DNA from: Pseudomonadota bacterium
GTDB taxonomy: Bacteria; Pseudomonadota; Gammaproteobacteria; Burkholderiales; Burkholderiaceae_C
NCBI GenBank assembly: GCA_021808445.1
Contig: JAKBBP010000023.1
Location: forward strand, 1 to 42,056
Direction of reading: 5' to 3'
DNA length: 42,056 bases
Positions 11,703 through 41,084 of this stretch are shown here, one piece after another (position 1 is the first letter of the stretch; every line of letters starts with the position of its first letter). The translations under genes were made by a program, and so were the position numbers. The notes beneath the pieces are model-generated. The model was not told the DNA's origin and made no database searches. It saw only the letters and a program-made list of their open reading frames with translations.

Positions 11703-12452
11703 TCAGCCCGCCTGCTCCTGCGGGCTCGCGCTGGCCAGCTGGCGGCCGACATAGGTCACCGGGCCGGTGGGCTGCCCGGTGGGAGAGCCGCCCAGCGGCT
11801 CCACGCTGATCGCGAAACCCTTGGCCTGTACCGCGGCATCGACCAGCCTGGGCGGCATGGGCATGTGCTGGGTGCCGTGCAGGCTCACCACGCCGGCGGC
11901 GATGGGCTTGCCCTGGCGTGGCAGCACCCACAGTTCGAAGGACTTGCCGGGTGGCGGCGCCTGCGCCCCCACCGCCGTCAGCGCCGCCCGCGTGCCGCGT
12001 ACCTGCAGCACCGCGGCATGACCTGCCGGTCCGTCGAGCACCGCCACGAGCTCAAGCGGCGCGGGCGCCTGGCCCGGGCCGCGCACGAGCAGGGCCACCA
12101 GCAAGGCCAGCGACACGGCTGCCGTGGCGCCCAGGCTCAGCGCCAGGCCACGCCAGGCGCGCAGGCCCCAGCCAAGCATGCCGCCGGCGGGGGAATTCGC
12201 GGCGCCGGCGAGTGCATCGCCCGGGCGCGACGTGGCGATGCGCTGCTGCACGGCCTCCCAGACGCCATCGGGGGTGCGCTCGGGCAGCAGCCCCTGGTCC
12301 AGGCGCATGCGCCAGTGTTCGAGCGCGCGAGCCAGTTCCGGGCGATCGCCCAACAGGGACTCGTAGCGGCGACGCGCGCCAGCGCACATGCCGCCCGTGA
12401 GATAGTCGGCAGCCAGGCGCTCGAGCAGTTCGGGGTGGCGTTCCAGCCTCAT
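11703..12452 (-). CDS. Anti-sigma factor, RskA type
   Basis: A 249-residue single-pass membrane protein. The N-terminal ~95 residues form the cytoplasmic zinc-free anti-sigma domain (HPELLERLAADYLTGGM ...). One transmembrane helix follows at about 107-130 (LSLGATAAVSLALLVALLV). The periplasmic part has the RskA C-terminal signature (GKSFELWVLP ... PIAAGVVSLHG). It should hold the ECF sigma factor encoded just upstream at the membrane and release it after an envelope or oxidative signal. Its ATG overlaps the sigma stop codon by 4 bp (ATGA), so the two are translationally coupled. No ChrR-type cupin/zinc motif is seen. Confidence 0.88.
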   Translation of the reverse strand: MRLERHPELLERLAADYLTGGMCAGARRRYESLLGDRPELARALEHWRMRLDQGLLPERTPDGVWEAVQQRIATSRPGDALAGAANSPAGGMLGWGLRAWRGLALSLGATAAVSLALLVALLVRGPGQAPAPLELVAVLDGPAGHAAVLQVRGTRAALTAVGAQAPPPGKSFELWVLPRQGKPIAAGVVSLHGTQHMPMPPRLVDAAVQAKGFAISVEPLGGSPTGQPTGPVTYVGRQLASASPQEQAG

Positions 12453-13006
12453 GACACCGCCCCCCGCGCGAGGCACTCCCGCAGCGCCAGCACCGAGCGC
12501 CGGATCACGGTCTTCACGGTGCCCAGCGCCATGCCGAAGCGCTCGGAGATCTCGGAATGGCTCAGCCCCAGCACGTAGGACTCCGTCAACAGCTCGCGTT
12601 GCCGGGCTTGCAACTGCCCGAAGCAATCGAGCAGATGGCCTTGCGACAAACTGGCTTCCAGGCGTTGCTCGGGATTGGGCGCCGGGTCGGCGAACTCGGC
12701 GGCCTCGGGCAGTTCCTCGAGGCTGTCGGCCGGGTCGCGGCGTTGCGCGCGCAGGCGGTCTCGGCAGGTGTTGCGCACCACCGCGGCCAGCCAGGCCTCG
12801 GCAGCGCCCGCAGCCGGACGGAAGCTGGCGGCCTGGTGCCAGATTTTCACGTAGGCGTCCTGCATGGCGTCCTCGGCCTGGGTGGGGTCGCGCAGCAGGC
12901 GCAGGCAAATGGCCCAGGCGCGGCGGCGCGTGGCTTCGTACAAACGCGAGAAGGCCTCGCGGTCGCCGAGTGCGGTGAAGGCCAGCAGTTTTTCCAGGTC
13001 GGGCAT
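12449..13006 (-). CDS. ECF-family RNA polymerase sigma factor
   Basis: A 185-residue extracytoplasmic-function sigma factor. Region 2 (LGDREAFSRLYEATRR ... QDAYVKIWHQ, residues 10-70) binds the -10 element. After a short acidic linker, region 4 (LLTESYVLGLSHSEISERFG ... LGTVKTVIRR, about 125-180) binds the -35. There is no region 1 or 3. I start at ATG 13006, where homology begins; in-frame ATGs at 13081 and 13093 would add an Arg/Pro-rich extension. It lies in one operon with the ferritin-like gene upstream and the RskA-like anti-sigma factor downstream. The proposed recognition sequence is TGAATCC-N16-CGTA(A/T)G, found upstream of its own operon and of the lipid operon at 37064. Confidence 0.92.
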   Translation of the reverse strand: MPDLEKLLAFTALGDREAFSRLYEATRRRAWAICLRLLRDPTQAEDAMQDAYVKIWHQAASFRPAAGAAEAWLAAVVRNTCRDRLRAQRRDPADSLEELPEAAEFADPAPNPEQRLEASLSQGHLLDCFGQLQARQRELLTESYVLGLSHSEISERFGMALGTVKTVIRRSVLALRECLARGAVS

Positions 13007-13142: not shown

Positions 13143-13721
13143 TCAGGCGATGAAGGCCGCCGGAACCGGGTTCTCGCCCAGCGCGTTGAGCAGAATGGCC
13201 CAGTGCATGGTCTCGTCGCCCAGAATGCTCGCGGCCGCCTTGGCCAGGTCGCGGTTGTGGAACTGCGGCACCGTGCCCAGGTAGGCGCTGGCGGCGCCTT
13301 TTTCCAGGCCCGCGGCAAAGCGCAGCACATCGGCCTGGTTTTTCAGCTTGTCCGTGGGGAAGCCGTAGTCCGCCGGCTTTTTCGCCATCACCGCCGTGCC
13401 GCCCAGCTTGGAGATGGTGGCCTCGAGGATCCCGGCGTGCGCCTTGTGCTGACCCTGGAATTCCACCGCGACGGCGAGCACGGGCTTTTGCAGCAGCCCC
13501 GATTCGGCGCCCACCTGATAGGCGGCGATGGCCTGGTACTCCAGGCCCAGCGCGACGTTGAGCATGTCAATGTCGCCTTGCGTGGACATCGAGGCGGCGA
13601 AGCTGCGCGTGGGCAGGGCCAGCGCCGAGGCGGCGCTCAGCCCGGCCACGAACAGGCCTCCGCGCTTGAACCAGTCACGGCGATCGAGGGCAGGGAGCTT
13701 GCGCTCATCGGATGCGTTCAT
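13143..13721 (-). CDS. Tat-exported ferritin-like domain protein
   Basis: A 192-residue secreted ferritin-like four-helix protein. The N-terminus has RRDWFKR followed by a hydrophobic stretch and ALALPTRSFA, a twin-arginine signal peptide with cleavage near residue 43. Di-iron ligand candidates are Glu61 (LEYQ), Glu88 and His92 (EFQGQH), Glu140, and Glu170 with His173 (DETMH), the spacing expected for a ferritin/rubrerythrin-like carboxylate site. A role in periplasmic iron or oxidant handling is likely but not proven. AGGAG lies just before the start. It is the first gene of the sigma/anti-sigma operon, an arrangement that suggests it is a main target of that sigma factor. Confidence 0.85.
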   Translation of the reverse strand: MNASDERKLPALDRRDWFKRGGLFVAGLSAASALALPTRSFAASMSTQGDIDMLNVALGLEYQAIAAYQVGAESGLLQKPVLAVAVEFQGQHKAHAGILEATISKLGGTAVMAKKPADYGFPTDKLKNQADVLRFAAGLEKGAASAYLGTVPQFHNRDLAKAAASILGDETMHWAILLNALGENPVPAAFIA

Positions 13722-13786: not shown

Positions 13787-13815
13787 CTTACGCCTCAACC
13801 GGAGATTCGGATTCA
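13787..13815 (-). promoter_or_regulatory. Putative ECF promoter of the ferritin-sigma-anti-sigma operon
   Basis: On the minus strand TGAATCC (13815-13809) and CGTAAG (13792-13787) are separated by exactly 16 bp. The same pair with the same spacing occurs upstream of the FAD/DUF1365/CFA operon (37002-37030). The position would give a leader of about 58 nt before the ferritin-like start. I infer autoregulation by the sigma factor at 12449-13006. Confidence 0.6.
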
Positions 13816-36014: not shown

Positions 36015-36815
36015 TCAGGCGCGCTGGAATACTTTGTGTAGCAATTTCGTGGCGCCGCTCCCCGAAGCGAAGGCTACGTGGCCCAAGGCCGCGGCACCGA
36101 GGGCACCGACCAGGGCCAGGCCATAGGCGGCGGCCAGGCCGCCGCGCTGCAGCCACAGCGCCACGACCAGGTTGAAGGTGGCGGCGCCGAGGCAGCCGAC
36201 GATGATGCCTCGCAGCAGGGCGCGTGCCGCCTCGGGGCCCGCCTGTCGGTGCGTGAAGCCTCCCATGGTCGCCGACAGCACCGGAAGCGCGGCCAGCATG
36301 CCGCTCCAGGTGGGGCCCAGGTGCAGCGAGACGGCGGTGATGCCCAGCACCACGGCCAGGGCAAAGCCCATGCGCGCCGGCAGGTCCCACCAGGGGTGCC
36401 GGGTCTGCAGGATCGGCCCCTGCCGGCCGGCCAGCAGCGCCAGCGCAATGAGGGCCGGAAACACCATCGCCGCGGCCATGCCGGGGTGCTGGGGCAGGCG
36501 TGCCAGCAGCAGGAACAGGCTGCCGCTGGCCAGGCTGGCCAGCAACAGGGCCGGGGCCCAGCGGCGCCCCCGCGCGGCCCGCGCATAGGTCGCGCAAAAG
36601 CCGGCCGTTCCTGTCAGTCCCAGCAGGGTGCCCACGGCCGCGCGCGAGGCGAAGTCCGGGCCGTTCTGCATGGCCAGGAACACCGAGAGCGGCGCGGAGG
36701 TCAGCGGCAGGCCGGTCAGCAACCCGCCGACGGAACCCCCGAAGCGCCGCTGCAGCAAGGTCGCGCCGAGGACCAGCAGCGGGGTGACGGCGATCTTGAA
36801 CAGCAGCAGGCTCAT
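36015..36815 (-). CDS. Uncharacterised membrane protein with internal duplication
   Basis: A 266-residue hydrophobic protein with about eight membrane segments; I do not recognise the family. It contains an internal duplication: residues 30-62 (GLLTGLPLTSAPLSVF ...) correspond to 171-203 (GMLAALPVLSATMGGF ...), each followed by P-[DE]-x-A and a glycine-rich helix, so it is probably a two-repeat transporter or channel. Start ATG 36815. It is divergent from the lipid operon and its upstream region holds the TGTCC direct repeats. Confidence 0.75.
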   Translation of the reverse strand: MSLLLFKIAVTPLLVLGATLLQRRFGGSVGGLLTGLPLTSAPLSVFLAMQNGPDFASRAAVGTLLGLTGTAGFCATYARAARGRRWAPALLLASLASGSLFLLLARLPQHPGMAAAMVFPALIALALLAGRQGPILQTRHPWWDLPARMGFALAVVLGITAVSLHLGPTWSGMLAALPVLSATMGGFTHRQAGPEAARALLRGIIVGCLGAATFNLVVALWLQRGGLAAAYGLALVGALGAAALGHVAFASGSGATKLLHKVFQRA

Positions 36816-36962: not shown

Positions 36963-37001
36963 TGCGACAATGCGCTCGCAGACCCTCCCGCACGGGAATC
37001 C

Positions 37002-37030
37002 TGAATCCGTTGCGGTTCGCGCAACGTATG
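37002..37030 (+). promoter_or_regulatory. Putative ECF promoter of the FAD/DUF1365/CFA operon
   Basis: TGAATCC (37002-37008), 16 bp, CGTATG (37025-37030). This is the same pair, with the same spacing, as upstream of the ferritin-sigma-anti-sigma operon. Transcription would start near 37037, 27 nt before the first gene. The spacer itself includes a GTTGCG-N5-CGCAAC inverted repeat (37009-37025). Confidence 0.6.
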
Positions 37031-37063: not shown

Positions 37064-38434
37064 ATGTCCCAGCCGAACCCCTCGCGCCGCGATCGCGGCG
37101 AACAGCAGCCCAGGGTCGCCATCGTCGGCAGTGGCATCGCCGGGCTGGCGGCCGCCTGGGCGCTGAAGGACCATGCGCGGCTGACGGTCTTCGAGGCCGG
37201 CTCGCATTTTGGAGGCCATGTGCACACGGTGGACGCCACCGTGGATGGCATCAGCTACCCCGTGGACACCGGCTTCCTGGTGCTCAACGAGCGCACCTAC
37301 CCCGGGCTGCTGGGGCTGTTCGCCGAGCTCGATGTGGATCTGGCGAAGTCGGACATGTCCTTTTCCGTGCAGCGGCCCCTGAACGGGGGCGCAAGGCTGG
37401 AGTGGAGCGGCTCCAGCCTGGACACCGTGTTCGCCCAGCGCGCCAATCTGCTGCGTCCGCGCTTCTGGGGCATGCTGCGGGACATCCTGCGTTTCAACCG
37501 CGAGGCCACGGCGCTGGCGCAGGCGGGCCTGCGGGACGAGCAGCGCAGCGTGGGCCAGTTCCTGCGCGAAGGGGACTATGGCGAGGCTTTCGTGCAGGAC
37601 TATCTGCTGCCGATGGTGGCCTGCATCTGGTCCTGCCCGGCACGGCGCATGCTGGAGTTTCCGCTGGCCTCGATGGTGCGCTTCTGCCACAACCACGGGC
37701 TGCTGCAGGTCGAGGGGCGGCCCCAGTGGTACACGGTGCGCGGCGGCGCCCGGCGCTACGTGCAGCGCATCGTGGAGCAATTGCCCGATGCCCGGCTGGA
37801 ATGTCCGGTGCGTCGCGTCAAGCGCTACGAGGTCGGCGTGGAAGTGAGCACGGACTCCGGAACCGAATGGTTCGACCATGTGGTGCTGGCTTGCCACAGC
37901 GACCAGGCCCTGGGCCTGCTGGCCGATGCCGACGACACGGAGCGCGAGGTGCTGGGCGCCGTGCGCTATCAACCCAACCGTGCCCTGCTGCATACCGACG
38001 CCACGCTGCTGCCGCGCAGCCGCAAGGCCTGGGCGGCCTGGAATTTCGAGAGCGATCAGCCCGGCGGCGACGGCACCGACGGGGCCGAAGCCTCCTCGGT
38101 GTGCCTGCATTACCTGATCAACAAATTGCAGCCGGTACCGTTCCAGCGCCCCCTGCTGGTATCCCTCAACCCGCTGCGCGAGCCGGATCCTGCCCAGGTG
38201 CTGCAGGAAATGGAGTACGCCCATCCGGTGTTCGACGCAGCCGCCATCGCCGCGCAGGCCCGGGTGCCGCAGCTGCAGGGGCGGCGGCGAAGCTACTTCT
38301 GCGGAGCCTGGTGCGGGCACGGCTTTCACGAGGATGGCCTGCGCGCCGGACGCGCAGCCGCCCAGGCCTGGCTGGACCAGCAACGTGTGCATGCGTCGCG
38401 CGGCTTCGAGGAGGTTCTGGAGATGTTGGCATGA
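37064..38434 (+). CDS. FAD-dependent oxidoreductase (amine-oxidase fold)
   Basis: A 456-residue flavoprotein. The dinucleotide-binding motif VAIVGSGIAGLAAAWAL (about 18-34) and the flavin motif FEAGSHFGGHVHTVD follow the N-terminus. Further family signs are YPVDTGFLVLNERTYPGLL and the C-terminal SYFCGAWCGHGFHEDGL that closes the flavin site. Homologues sit beside DUF1365 and CFA-like genes and belong to singlet-oxygen operons. A role as fatty-acid desaturase (UfaD-like) is possible from context only. First gene of the operon; the next starts 22 bp downstream. Confidence 0.88.
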   Translation: MSQPNPSRRDRGEQQPRVAIVGSGIAGLAAAWALKDHARLTVFEAGSHFGGHVHTVDATVDGISYPVDTGFLVLNERTYPGLLGLFAELDVDLAKSDMSFSVQRPLNGGARLEWSGSSLDTVFAQRANLLRPRFWGMLRDILRFNREATALAQAGLRDEQRSVGQFLREGDYGEAFVQDYLLPMVACIWSCPARRMLEFPLASMVRFCHNHGLLQVEGRPQWYTVRGGARRYVQRIVEQLPDARLECPVRRVKRYEVGVEVSTDSGTEWFDHVVLACHSDQALGLLADADDTEREVLGAVRYQPNRALLHTDATLLPRSRKAWAAWNFESDQPGGDGTDGAEASSVCLHYLINKLQPVPFQRPLLVSLNPLREPDPAQVLQEMEYAHPVFDAAAIAAQARVPQLQGRRRSYFCGAWCGHGFHEDGLRAGRAAAQAWLDQQRVHASRGFEEVLEMLA

Positions 38435-38456: not shown

Positions 38457-39230
38457 GTGACCGCTGCGCTGATCGGACGCGGGGTGGTGCACCACACGCG
38501 CCTGCGCCCGGCGCGTCATGCCTTCGCCTACCGCGTGTTCTTTCTCATGCTTCCCATGCGCGCGCTGGCGCGGGGCGAGGCCACGCTGGCGATCGCACGC
38601 AATCGCGCCGCTTGGCTGAGTTTCCACGATGCCGACCATGGCGAAGGCGGTGACGACAGCCTGGCCTGGATCGAGGGGCTGCTGCGCGAGCATGGCGTGC
38701 ACGACGCGCGGGGAGAAATCTGGCTGCAGACCTTCGCCCGCGTGCTGGGCTATGTGTTCAAGCCGGTGAGCTTCTGGTACTGCCACCGCGAGGACGGTTC
38801 GCTGGCCGCCGTCGTGGCCGAGGTCAACAGCACCTTTGGCGAGCGCCATTGCTACGTGCTGCGCTCCGGCGACGGTCGCAGCTTGGCCTGGGGCGAGGAG
38901 CTGCGCGCCGACAAGGCCATGCACGTGTCGCCCTTTTGCCGCATCGAGGGAGGCTACCGCTTCCGCTTCCTGCGCTGCACGCGCGACGGCGTCGAGCGCG
39001 TGGTCGCCCGCGTGGACCACGACGATGCCCTGGGCCCCCTGCTGCGCACCAGCCTGGGTGGCAGCCTGCAGGTTCTTACGCCGGGCTCCGCGCGGCTCGC
39101 GCTGCTCGCCCATCCCCTGCACAGTTTCGGGGTCATCGCGCGCATCCACTGGCAGGCGCTCGGCCTGTGGCGCAAGCGCGTGCCCTTTTTTTCCAGGCCG
39201 CAGGCCTCCCGAGAACCCCTGACACCATGA
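38457..39230 (+). CDS. DUF1365 protein
   Basis: A 257-residue DUF1365 protein starting with GTG at 38457 (MTAALIGRGVVHHTRLRPARHAFAYRVFFLMLPM is the family opening). Other conserved parts are VFKPVSFWYCHREDGSLAAVVAEVNSTFGERHCYVL and DKAMHVSPFCRIEGGYRFRF. The function is not established. It always travels with CFA-like and flavin genes, and I suspect an oxygenating or accessory role in fatty-acid modification (UfaO-like). The stop overlaps the methyltransferase start (ATGA). No upstream in-frame start has better support. Confidence 0.88.
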   Translation: MTAALIGRGVVHHTRLRPARHAFAYRVFFLMLPMRALARGEATLAIARNRAAWLSFHDADHGEGGDDSLAWIEGLLREHGVHDARGEIWLQTFARVLGYVFKPVSFWYCHREDGSLAAVVAEVNSTFGERHCYVLRSGDGRSLAWGEELRADKAMHVSPFCRIEGGYRFRFLRCTRDGVERVVARVDHDDALGPLLRTSLGGSLQVLTPGSARLALLAHPLHSFGVIARIHWQALGLWRKRVPFFSRPQASREPLTP

Positions 39231-40501
39231 ACGCCCGCTCCGACTCCACTCGTCCAGGCGCCCTGCACGGCGGCGCCGTCTCCGTGCCCCGCCGGCGCTC
39301 CGCCCGCGTGCCACTGGCCGCGCGCAGCGTGCTGGCCATGTTGCGCAAGCTGCGCCATGGGCGCCTCGAACTTCGCCTGCCCGACGGCCGCCAGCTCTCG
39401 CTGGGCCGCGACGAGCCCGGTCAGCCCGTGGCGCAGGCGCAGGTGCACGATTGGTCCGTGTTCGGTGCCGTGCTGCGTCGCGGGGACATCGGATGCGCCG
39501 AGGGCTACTTCCACGGGCAGTGGAGCAGCCCGGACCTGCCGGCGCTGCTCGGCCTGCTGGTGGCCAACCGCGCGGTGGTCGAGCGCGCGCTGCACGGAAG
39601 CCCGCTGGGGACCCTGATGGCGCGCCTGCGCCACCTCTTGTTGCGGCGCAACACCCGGCGCGGCAGCCGGGACAACATCCACGCCCACTACGACCTGGGC
39701 AACGACTTCTATCAGCTGTGGCTGGATCCGGGCATGAACTATTCCTCGGCGCTGTTCGCCCGGCCCGGCATGAGCCTGGAGCAGGCGCAACAGGCCAAGC
39801 TCGACCGCGTGCTCGGTGAACTGCAACCGAGCCCCGGCCAGCGCGTGGTCGAACTGGGTTGCGGCTGGGGAGGTTTCGCCGAGACGGCTGCACGTGCCGG
39901 ACTCCAGGTGGATGGCATCACCCTGTCCGAGCGACAGCTGGAGTTCGCCCAGGCGCGATTGCGCGACGCCGGGCTGGAGGAGCGGGCCAGGGTGCACCTG
40001 TGCGACTACCGGGATGCGCAGCGACTGGCACCCGCGGGCGGATTCGACGCGCTCGCCTCCATCGAAATGTTCGAGGCCGTGGGCGAAGCCTACTGGCCCA
40101 CGTATTTCCGCAGCGTGGCGGGACTGCTTCGCCCTGGCGGACGTGCCTGCATCCAGACCATCGTCATCGATGAGGCCTTGTTCGAGGACTACCGGCGCGG
40201 CACCGACTTCATCCAGCGCTACGTGTTTCCGGGCGGCATGCTCCCCAGCCGATCGGCCTTCGTCGAGCAGGCGCGAAAGGCCGGCCTCGAGGTCCTGGCC
40301 AGTCATGCCTTCGGCGCCGACTACGCGAGCACGCTGGCCCAGTGGCGCGAACGCTTCCTGGCGCGGCTTCCCGCAGTGCGCGGGCAGGGTTTCGATCGCC
40401 GCTTCGAACTCTTGTGGGACTTCTACCTGGCCTATTGCGAGGCCGGATTCGCGCATGGCAGCATCGACGTCCTCCAGTTCACCCTGCGCCGGCCGGCCTG
40501 A
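39227..40501 (+). CDS. CFA-like SAM-dependent fatty-acyl methyltransferase
   Basis: A 424-residue protein homologous to cyclopropane-fatty-acyl-phospholipid synthase, acting on acyl chains of membrane phospholipids. It keeps the HYDLGND substrate motif (about 154), the SAM motif VVELGCGWGGF (207-217), Glu283, Ile312, Tyr366 and Cys403. However, two bicarbonate-binding residues of E. coli CFA synthase are changed: Cys139 is Ser174 (NYSSALF) and His266 is Gln310 (IQTI). That suggests methylation without ring closure, as in UfaM-type enzymes. Overlaps DUF1365 by 4 bp and the next gene by 47 bp. Confidence 0.88.
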   Translation: MNARSDSTRPGALHGGAVSVPRRRSARVPLAARSVLAMLRKLRHGRLELRLPDGRQLSLGRDEPGQPVAQAQVHDWSVFGAVLRRGDIGCAEGYFHGQWSSPDLPALLGLLVANRAVVERALHGSPLGTLMARLRHLLLRRNTRRGSRDNIHAHYDLGNDFYQLWLDPGMNYSSALFARPGMSLEQAQQAKLDRVLGELQPSPGQRVVELGCGWGGFAETAARAGLQVDGITLSERQLEFAQARLRDAGLEERARVHLCDYRDAQRLAPAGGFDALASIEMFEAVGEAYWPTYFRSVAGLLRPGGRACIQTIVIDEALFEDYRRGTDFIQRYVFPGGMLPSRSAFVEQARKAGLEVLASHAFGADYASTLAQWRERFLARLPAVRGQGFDRRFELLWDFYLAYCEAGFAHGSIDVLQFTLRRPA

Positions 40502-41084
40502 GTCGCCGGCGCGGCGTGCCGCGCTGCTGGCGGGCGCGGCCTGGCTGGCCTGGGCCTCGACGCCTGGCCGCGCCGAGGCCGTGCGCCGCGCCCCGGCGCG
40601 CGTGGAGCAGGCGCTGGGCGGGGCCCGCCTGAGTGGCAGTGCCGAGCTGCGCTGGTGGGGGCTGGACATCTATCGCGCCTGGCTGTGGGTCGGTCCCGAG
40701 GGCCTGGACCCGGCGCACCTCACCGCCCGGCCTTTCGCGCTGGAACTGCGCTATGCACGCAGCCTGCGCGGGGTCGACATCGCCGACAAGTCGGCCGAAC
40801 TCATCGCGGGTCTCGGCCTGGGCAGCCCGGCAGAGCTTCGGGCCTGGCGAGAACACATGCGCAGGGTGTTTCCCGATGTGCGCGCCGGCGACACGCTGCT
40901 CGGCCTGTACCAGCCCGACACGCCCAAGGGCGCGCGCACCCGATTCCTGTTCAACGGCAGGCTCGTCGGGACCATCGAGGGTCGGGACTTCGCCCGCGCC
41001 TTCTTTTCCATCTGGCTGTCGCCGCGCAGCAGCGAGCCCGACTTGCGCCGAGCCCTGCTGGCCGGCGTGGAGCCGACGCGGTGA
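40455..41084 (+). CDS. Chalcone-isomerase-like secreted protein
   Basis: A 209-residue protein with an N-terminal signal peptide (ARRAALLAGAAWLAWASTPGRAEA, cleavage near residue 42). The mature domain matches chalcone isomerase-like bacterial proteins (LSGSAELRWWGLDIYRAWLWVG ... FALELRYARSLRGVDIADKSAELI ... GDTLLGLYQPDTPKGARTRFLFNG). Bacterial members of this fold bind fatty acids rather than flavonoids, which suits the operon. The start is uncertain: ATG 40455 lies inside the CFA-like gene (47 bp overlap); a later non-ATG start is possible. Confidence 0.75.
   Translation: MAASTSSSSPCAGRPESPARRAALLAGAAWLAWASTPGRAEAVRRAPARVEQALGGARLSGSAELRWWGLDIYRAWLWVGPEGLDPAHLTARPFALELRYARSLRGVDIADKSAELIAGLGLGSPAELRAWREHMRRVFPDVRAGDTLLGLYQPDTPKGARTRFLFNGRLVGTIEGRDFARAFFSIWLSPRSSEPDLRRALLAGVEPTR

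Follow-up and report, generated by a model that had tools for sequence, protein, structure and literature searches.

A predicted ECF promoter motif before a SigK/RskA-type sigma factor operon and a Ufa-type lipid operon in a Thiomonas-type betaproteobacterium

The stretch of DNA analysed here (the window; one entire contig of 42,056 bases) contains the motif TGAATCC-N16-CGTA twice, before a ferritin-sigma-rskA operon and before a distant operon of lipid-modification genes. We think it probable (roughly 85%) that the SigK-like ECF sigma factor encoded at 12449-13006 uses both sites as promoters and would thus serve its own operon and the lipid operon. Because the motif is conserved before both operons with varying spacers, this regulatory link is supported by comparative sequence evidence.

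The closest relatives of the window are Thiomonas-type betaproteobacteria. The sigma protein is 96% identical to its counterparts in two metagenome-assembled genomes, 93% to those of two Thiomonas sp. records and 66% to that of T. delicata DSM 16361, a laboratory strain in which the motif is likewise present before both operons.

The two sites and their operons

Features are listed in Table 1; the gene calls for the sigma factor, anti-sigma factor, ferritin and lipid operon agree with those of the preliminary description. Pattern search confirmed the pair of sites noted there, with identical N16 spacing. The lipid-operon site (37002-37030, +) reads TGAATCC-GTTGCGGTTCGCGCAA-CGTATG and the ferritin-sigma-rskA site (13815-13787, -) reads TGAATCC-GAATCTCCGGTTGAGG-CGTAAG, so that the spacers are indeed unlike each other. 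Counted from the end of CGTA, the start codon follows after 35 nt for the FAD gene (ATG 37064) and after 67 nt for the ferritin gene (ATG 13721), distances that fit the leaders of about 27 and 58 nt predicted earlier. A second half-site, GGAATCC, lies directly before the TGAATCC of the lipid-operon site, in an overlapping match at 36995-37021.

Table 1. Features of the window and the basis on which each was assigned
Feature	Coordinates	Strand	Basis
RskA-type membrane anti-sigma factor	11703..12452	-	PF10099 E 1.1e-20; hydropathy
SigK-like ECF sigma factor	12449..13006	-	PF04542/PF08281; best PDB match 4nqw
Ferritin_2 domain protein, twin-arginine-like N-terminus RRDWFKRGG	13143..13721	-	PF13668 E 9e-33; signal read by eye
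Predicted ECF promoter TGAATCC-N16-CGTA of ferritin-sigma-anti-sigma operon	13789..13815	-	pattern match; kept in Thiomonas-type loci
Predicted ECF promoter TGAATCC-N16-CGTA of lipid operon	37002..37028	+	pattern match; exact copies in relatives
FAD amine-oxidase-like protein, UfaD homologue	37064..38434	+	PF01593 E 6.3e-20
DUF1365 protein, UfaO homologue, GTG start	38457..39230	+	PF07103 E 2.5e-74
CMAS/CFA-like SAM-dependent methyltransferase, candidate UfaM	39227..40501	+	PF02353 E 1.3e-78
Chalcone isomerase-like (Chalcone_3) protein	40488..41084	+	PF16036 E 7.8e-11
GPH-type MFS transporter, cut by contig end	41081..42056	+	PF13347 E 1.9e-23

The preliminary description had proposed a genome-wide search for TGAATCC-N15-17-CGTA. 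In the source assembly (3.38 Mb, 92% complete; G000 in our genome labels) this pattern has exactly two matches, both in promoter position, one before ferritin-sigma-rskA and one before the lipid operon; the reversed-pattern control has one. Allowing one mismatch at N16 adds 10 matches (reversed control, 1), nine of them inside called genes and the tenth without a called gene downstream. Within the window a loose pattern with three mismatches is at chance level (41 found versus 45.6 expected), so the window alone proves little and the genome-wide and comparative counts carry the case. A possible third target is one of the nine one-mismatch matches inside genes, a CGAATCC-N16-CGTA match at a gene end, 46 nt before the next called gene (L008, G000:C22:50589-50615, +).

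The sigma factor has sigma2 and sigma4 domains only (Pfam). Its closest solved relative is SigK (4nqw, E 1.2e-22), and its C128 and C178 correspond in the alignment to the conserved cysteine pair of SigK; both cysteines are present in 19 of 19 aligned sigma proteins, all of which were picked for motif or orthology. The anti-sigma factor scores 74.7 bits with RskA_C (PF10099; cut-off 29.4) and has a single clear hydrophobic segment, from residue 105, in its hydropathy profile. The HxxxCxxC zinc motif was looked for in it and is absent, and a PDB sequence search with it gave no match even at E 1. By Pfam domains, PDB match, cysteine pair and adjacent RskA_C anti-sigma factor, the pair classes on sequence as a SigK-RskA type system.

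In the lipid operon the UfaD-type FAD gene adjoins the DUF1365 (UfaO) gene, the arrangement by which we recognize a Ufa operon. The two proteins are 43% (FAD) and 40% (DUF1365) identical to their Cereibacter johrii homologues. UfaD and UfaO, which are RSP1091 and RSP1090, are required for furan fatty acid synthesis according to the consulted part of PMC7380195, and that of PMC6852236 places the genes for furan fatty acids in the core ECF11 regulon. The earlier remark that operons of this lipid type are known from RpoE-ChrR regulons is borne out by the UfaD/UfaO homology. The start of the Chalcone_3 protein is uncertain, between 40488 and 40581, the latter being the start given by the gene caller.

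In the window clade, a gene oriented divergently to the lipid operon (36015-36815, -) encodes a 266-aa membrane-type protein that has no Pfam family and whose NCBIfam matches, of PRK09272 type, are weak and under the cut-off; in this place glutathione peroxidase and FolE2 genes are found in many other Thiomonas-type genomes. The gene between glutathione peroxidase and FAD in those genomes had been taken for the 266-aa protein, wrongly: it encodes FolE2 (277 bits, cut-off 215).

Conservation of the motif in relatives

One scan of the named genomes yielded 66 sigma loci, 27 of them Thiomonas-type (55-96% identity), 25 of these with an upstream region. The exact motif precedes ferritin-sigma-rskA in 24 of the 25, with varying spacers, and the remaining locus has CGTC in place of CGTA. 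The more distant SigK-like loci L275-L279 and L281-L300 have no TGAATCC match within one mismatch. At L275-L279 and L281-L296 (mostly Rhodobacterales and Halieaceae) the sigma factor is mostly 37-43% identical to that of the window, and some of these loci lie near fasciclin and DUF4331 genes.

Across 150 sampled family genomes, the exact motif occurs at 167 sites in 61 genomes and the reversed pattern at 15 sites. RskA is found in 33 of 38 genomes with at least two motif copies versus 53 of the other 112 (Fisher p 1.9e-5), and in 45 of 61 with any copy versus 41 of 89 (p 8e-4). For same-strand pairing, 60 RskA matches and 42 motif sites were entered, from motif-bearing genomes and on shared contigs. 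At least 26 genomes, our own among them, have a motif copy no more than 3.6 kb upstream of rskA and in the same orientation; this count is a lower bound. The distance from motif to RskA_C match is 948-1079 nt in 19 of those 26 genomes, which places the motif before sigma-rskA; in G000, G032, G049 and G113 it is 1664-1968 nt and the leading gene is the ferritin.

These counts bear on the possibility that the motif is the promoter of another ECF sigma factor, for which the ferritin-sigma-rskA operon is merely one more target. Such factors would not be lacking, the family genomes listed containing 6-54 first-look sigma-like candidates, and 16 of the 61 motif-bearing genomes have no RskA match. 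We nevertheless rate this reading as unlikely in view of the same-strand pairing with rskA and its tight spacing, the near-constant presence of the motif before Thiomonas-type sigma operons, and the RskA enrichment. It also fits poorly with G122, where the ECF-rskA pair has TGAATCC and the ChrR-linked sigma factor has TGATCC.

The motif before the lipid operon was followed in the same family. DUF1365 was found in 48 of the 61 genomes searched; the main scan for the motif covered 43 of these, and the other five (G110, G112, G139, G029 and G092) were scanned later. The 43 upstream regions of the main scan, from genomes picked largely for holding the motif somewhere, contain 10 exact matches and 19 within one mismatch. 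For 150 permuted motifs in the same regions, the means were 0.007 exact and 0.33 within one mismatch (maxima 1 and 4), and spacings of 13, 14, 15, 17, 18 and 19 gave zero matches. Several matches are coding coincidences or doubtful, so these raw counts were cut by hand. Site-by-site reading left 16 of the 43 as credible (9 exact, 7 one-mismatch; raw 19), a proportion that is not a family frequency because the genomes were largely picked for the motif. The support from the permutation and spacing controls is unchanged, since they do not hang on the removed sites. No match within one mismatch is present in 24 of the 43 regions, nor any such N16 match before the lipid operon in the five later genomes, in one of which (G139) the FAD gene is preceded, at a distance of about 490 nt, by an exact TGAATCC match with N17. 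The lipid-operon motif occurs across several genera, with N16 fixed and spacers changing.

The matches set aside were as follows. We did not accept every motif match near DUF1365 as a promoter: five of them (G006, G039, G054, G099 at 1635800, and G113) are located some 200-270 bp ahead of DUF1365, within the gene that precedes it. In T. intermedia-type genomes, the match before FAD whose spacer is ATCCACAACCATTCGG codes for the FolE2 C-terminus ESIHNHSAY and was rejected, as was the G103 match, inside a glutathione peroxidase gene. Those of G062 and G114 were removed, each being inside a called gene on the opposite strand. The G049 match before FAD is likewise a FolE2 coincidence; it was replaced by a credible site at 2345422, before the peroxidase gene and just beyond the region first scanned, which is counted among the 16. 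At the 3′ end of FolE2 genes (L384, L385, L401) the ESIHNHSAY codons often mimic the promoter motif exactly, a trap for motif counts.

Among Thiomonas-type lipid operons with usable upstream sequence (n = 30; four further genomes with a FAD match, G163, G171, G183 and G184, are truncated there by contig ends), a non-coding site is exact in 15 and differs by one mismatch in 2, and the remaining 13 lack any within one mismatch. On this evidence the predicted link between sigma factor and lipid operon is not universal. Seven of the 13 genomes without the motif there (G156-G159, G170, G172, G174) still have it, exact, at the sigma operon. The lipid-operon site is exact in six close relatives (L315-L320), and further Thiomonas-type genomes have it with other spacers; the seven window-clade sites are near-copies and amount to roughly a single event.

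A periplasmic-type glutathione peroxidase gene precedes FAD in 13 of 16 annotated family loci, and in Thiomonas relatives FolE2 sits between the two. The window clade has neither gene there, and its motif directly precedes FAD.

The preliminary description had one ECF sigma factor transcribing both its own and the distant lipid operon. Comparison supports this, N16 being kept before both and RskA being enriched with the motif.

Relation to RpoE-ChrR and SigK-RskA systems

The arrangement resembles the ECF11 RpoE-ChrR systems of R. sphaeroides and S. oneidensis, in which an autoregulated sigma operon is combined with UfaD/UfaO-type lipid genes. Reported members of those regulons include folE2 (R. 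sphaeroides) and a periplasmic glutathione peroxidase (S. oneidensis), and both families occur in the lipid operon of Thiomonas relatives. The promoter is near-identical to the ECF11 motif TGATCC-N16-CGTA, the -35 element here having one extra A (TGAATCC). The ECF11 motif stands before the FAD gene of the homologous Cereibacter johrii operon and, for S. oneidensis RpoE2-ChrR, before the periplasmic glutathione peroxidase gene and the cfa operon (PMC4336711, the part consulted). Unlike in RpoE-ChrR, the anti-sigma factor is RskA-type rather than the zinc-binding ChrR, the sigma factor is SigK-like, and the FAD protein belongs to another clade.

That the anti-sigma factor is RskA-type and not ChrR had been proposed earlier, and it holds both for the protein, by its PF10099 match, and for the genome, whose best ChrR match (TIGR02451) is 32.5 bits against a cut-off of 124.5, with none passing. 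ChrR is over cut-off in 14 of the 150 family genomes. At 15 ChrR loci that were read, the UfaD-type FAD gene adjoins chrR in 11, and exact TGATCC-N16-CGTA is present in 11, in 8 of them immediately ahead of the sigma gene; no exact copy was seen at these loci in front of FAD itself. In the ChrR-linked operon of G116 (L243 3999-4025, +) GGAATCC-N16-CGTA stands 27 nt before the FAD gene, which may be an intermediate or cross-regulated promoter, and in G139 TCAATCC-N16-CGTA lies upstream of the ChrR-linked sigma factor. With these one-mismatch TGAATCC-type matches in promoter position at two of the 15 ChrR loci, the two motifs do not sort perfectly. ChrR and the presence of at least two motif copies show no exclusion (3/38 versus 11/112, Fisher p 1); exclusion is limited to the motif in front of the lipid operon, where none of the 19 genomes with a raw match has ChrR. 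A tree of 64 FAD proteins groups the 11 ChrR-linked sequences on a single branch next to alpha- and gammaproteobacterial proteins, and the other branch holds 19 raw-motif rows and 27 rows without the motif, with bootstrap support not fully settled.

The lipid operon might instead be under ECF11 RpoE-ChrR or another light or oxidative regulator, the TGAATCC match being incidental. We give this little credence: no ChrR passes in our own genome or in the 19 raw-match genomes, TGATCC-N16-CGTA has no match in the window, and the ChrR-linked FAD proteins are a separate clade, all of which weighs more with us than the frequent adjacency of FAD and chrR in the family, the 13 motif-less Thiomonas-type operons and the G116 site. 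Chance matches in a GC-rich genome, which the chance-level three-mismatch count in the window might suggest, are a negligible explanation, given that both exact genome matches are in promoter position and that the motif is kept from species to species while the sequence of its spacer, but not the N16 length, varies.

The sigma sequence, both cysteines and the RskA_C membrane anti-sigma factor are shared with SigK-RskA of Mycobacterium tuberculosis and Yersinia (ECF18/ECF19). Fasciclin, the fold of MPT70/MPT83, is a further point in common, its genes lying behind the motif in three relatives. Unlike there, the leading gene is ferritin-like and not mpt83, and the predicted regulon includes a Ufa-type lipid operon.

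An RpoE-ChrR-like locus of R. capsulatus also has a SigK/RskA-like pair (reported identities to SigK and RskA, 34% and 25%) with a gene for glutathione peroxidase next to it; the consulted part of the source reports that it is singlet-oxygen induced and that R. capsulatus is without homologues of RSP_1087-1091, the Ufa operon (PMC7074977). Our case differs in that a Ufa-type operon is a predicted target. The gene order resembles R. palustris RPA2571-2570-2569, where FAD and DUF1365 homologues adjoin and a CFA-type methyltransferase is next, and the system differs from the UfaM-UfaD-UfaO furan fatty acid pathway in its regulator and in the 40-43% identity to the Cereibacter homologues (PMC7380195, the part consulted). 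No report of a SigK/RskA-to-Ufa link was found in titles and abstract beginnings among the literature matches listed.

Proposed mechanism and wider predicted regulon

At rest, the sigma factor would be kept in check by the product of the adjacent gene, the RskA-type membrane anti-sigma factor. Oxidizing stress, sensed in the envelope or by the cysteine pair C128/C178, would free the sigma factor, which may then transcribe its own ferritin-sigma-rskA operon (autoregulation) and also the UfaD/UfaO/methyltransferase-type operon, so that membrane acyl chains would be remodelled. The products, probably methylated-unsaturated or furan fatty acids, would scavenge reactive oxygen. By analogy with the R. 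capsulatus SigK/RskA-like pair, singlet oxygen may be the inducer; peroxide, hypochlorite or a different oxidant are further candidates, and besides the cysteine pair the periplasmic part of RskA may be the sensor. In relatives the predicted promoter also stands before periplasmic glutathione peroxidase (mostly as first gene of the lipid operon), MsrP, fasciclin and DUF3034/DUF3455/DUF4331 genes, which could together form an envelope oxidative-repair regulon.

More tentatively, the furan-fatty-acid lipid operon may have, in this betaproteobacterial family, an ancient second lineage under a SigK-like sigma factor that is RskA-gated and senses envelope oxidation through its own cysteine pair, with operons switchable between sigma factors. 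The two promoter types differ by about one -35 base (TGATCC versus TGAATCC), so a one-base indel could move operons from one sigma factor to the other.

If the main reading is true, the singlet-oxygen lipid core, known from work on RpoE-ChrR in Rhodobacter, answers to a second regulator in betaproteobacteria. It would provide a concrete promoter for listing and testing the genes that a SigK-type sigma factor controls in Gram-negative bacteria, and allow the zinc anti-sigma sensor (ChrR) to be compared with the SigK/RskA-type sensor on homologous lipid genes.

Downstream genes were read for 126 of the 167 exact family sites, and a called gene starts within 300 bp at 96 of them. Counted by genomes, the downstream clusters at the 126 sites are ECF sigma factor (16), DUF3034 (12), DUF3455 (10), DUF4331 (7), glutathione peroxidase (6), DUF1365 (5, coding coincidences), ferritin (4), FAD (3, that of G049 being a coding coincidence), alpha/beta hydrolase (3), fasciclin (3) and MsrP (2), the rest being pairs and singletons. 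Families were checked by Pfam with one protein each, and MsrP by NCBIfam (477 bits, cut-off 207). With MsrP, periplasmic glutathione peroxidase and acyl-chain modification among its members, the predicted regulon points to oxidative damage in the envelope.

DUF3034, DUF3455, DUF4331 and fasciclin proteins recur behind the motif in other genera (L107, L109, L111, L189, L215 and others). A DUF4148-like protein, below the Pfam cut-off, lies downstream at three sites in one genome: G085 has three near-identical promoter copies on three contigs (L046, L171, L172), each 50 nt before a small DUF4148-like exported protein.
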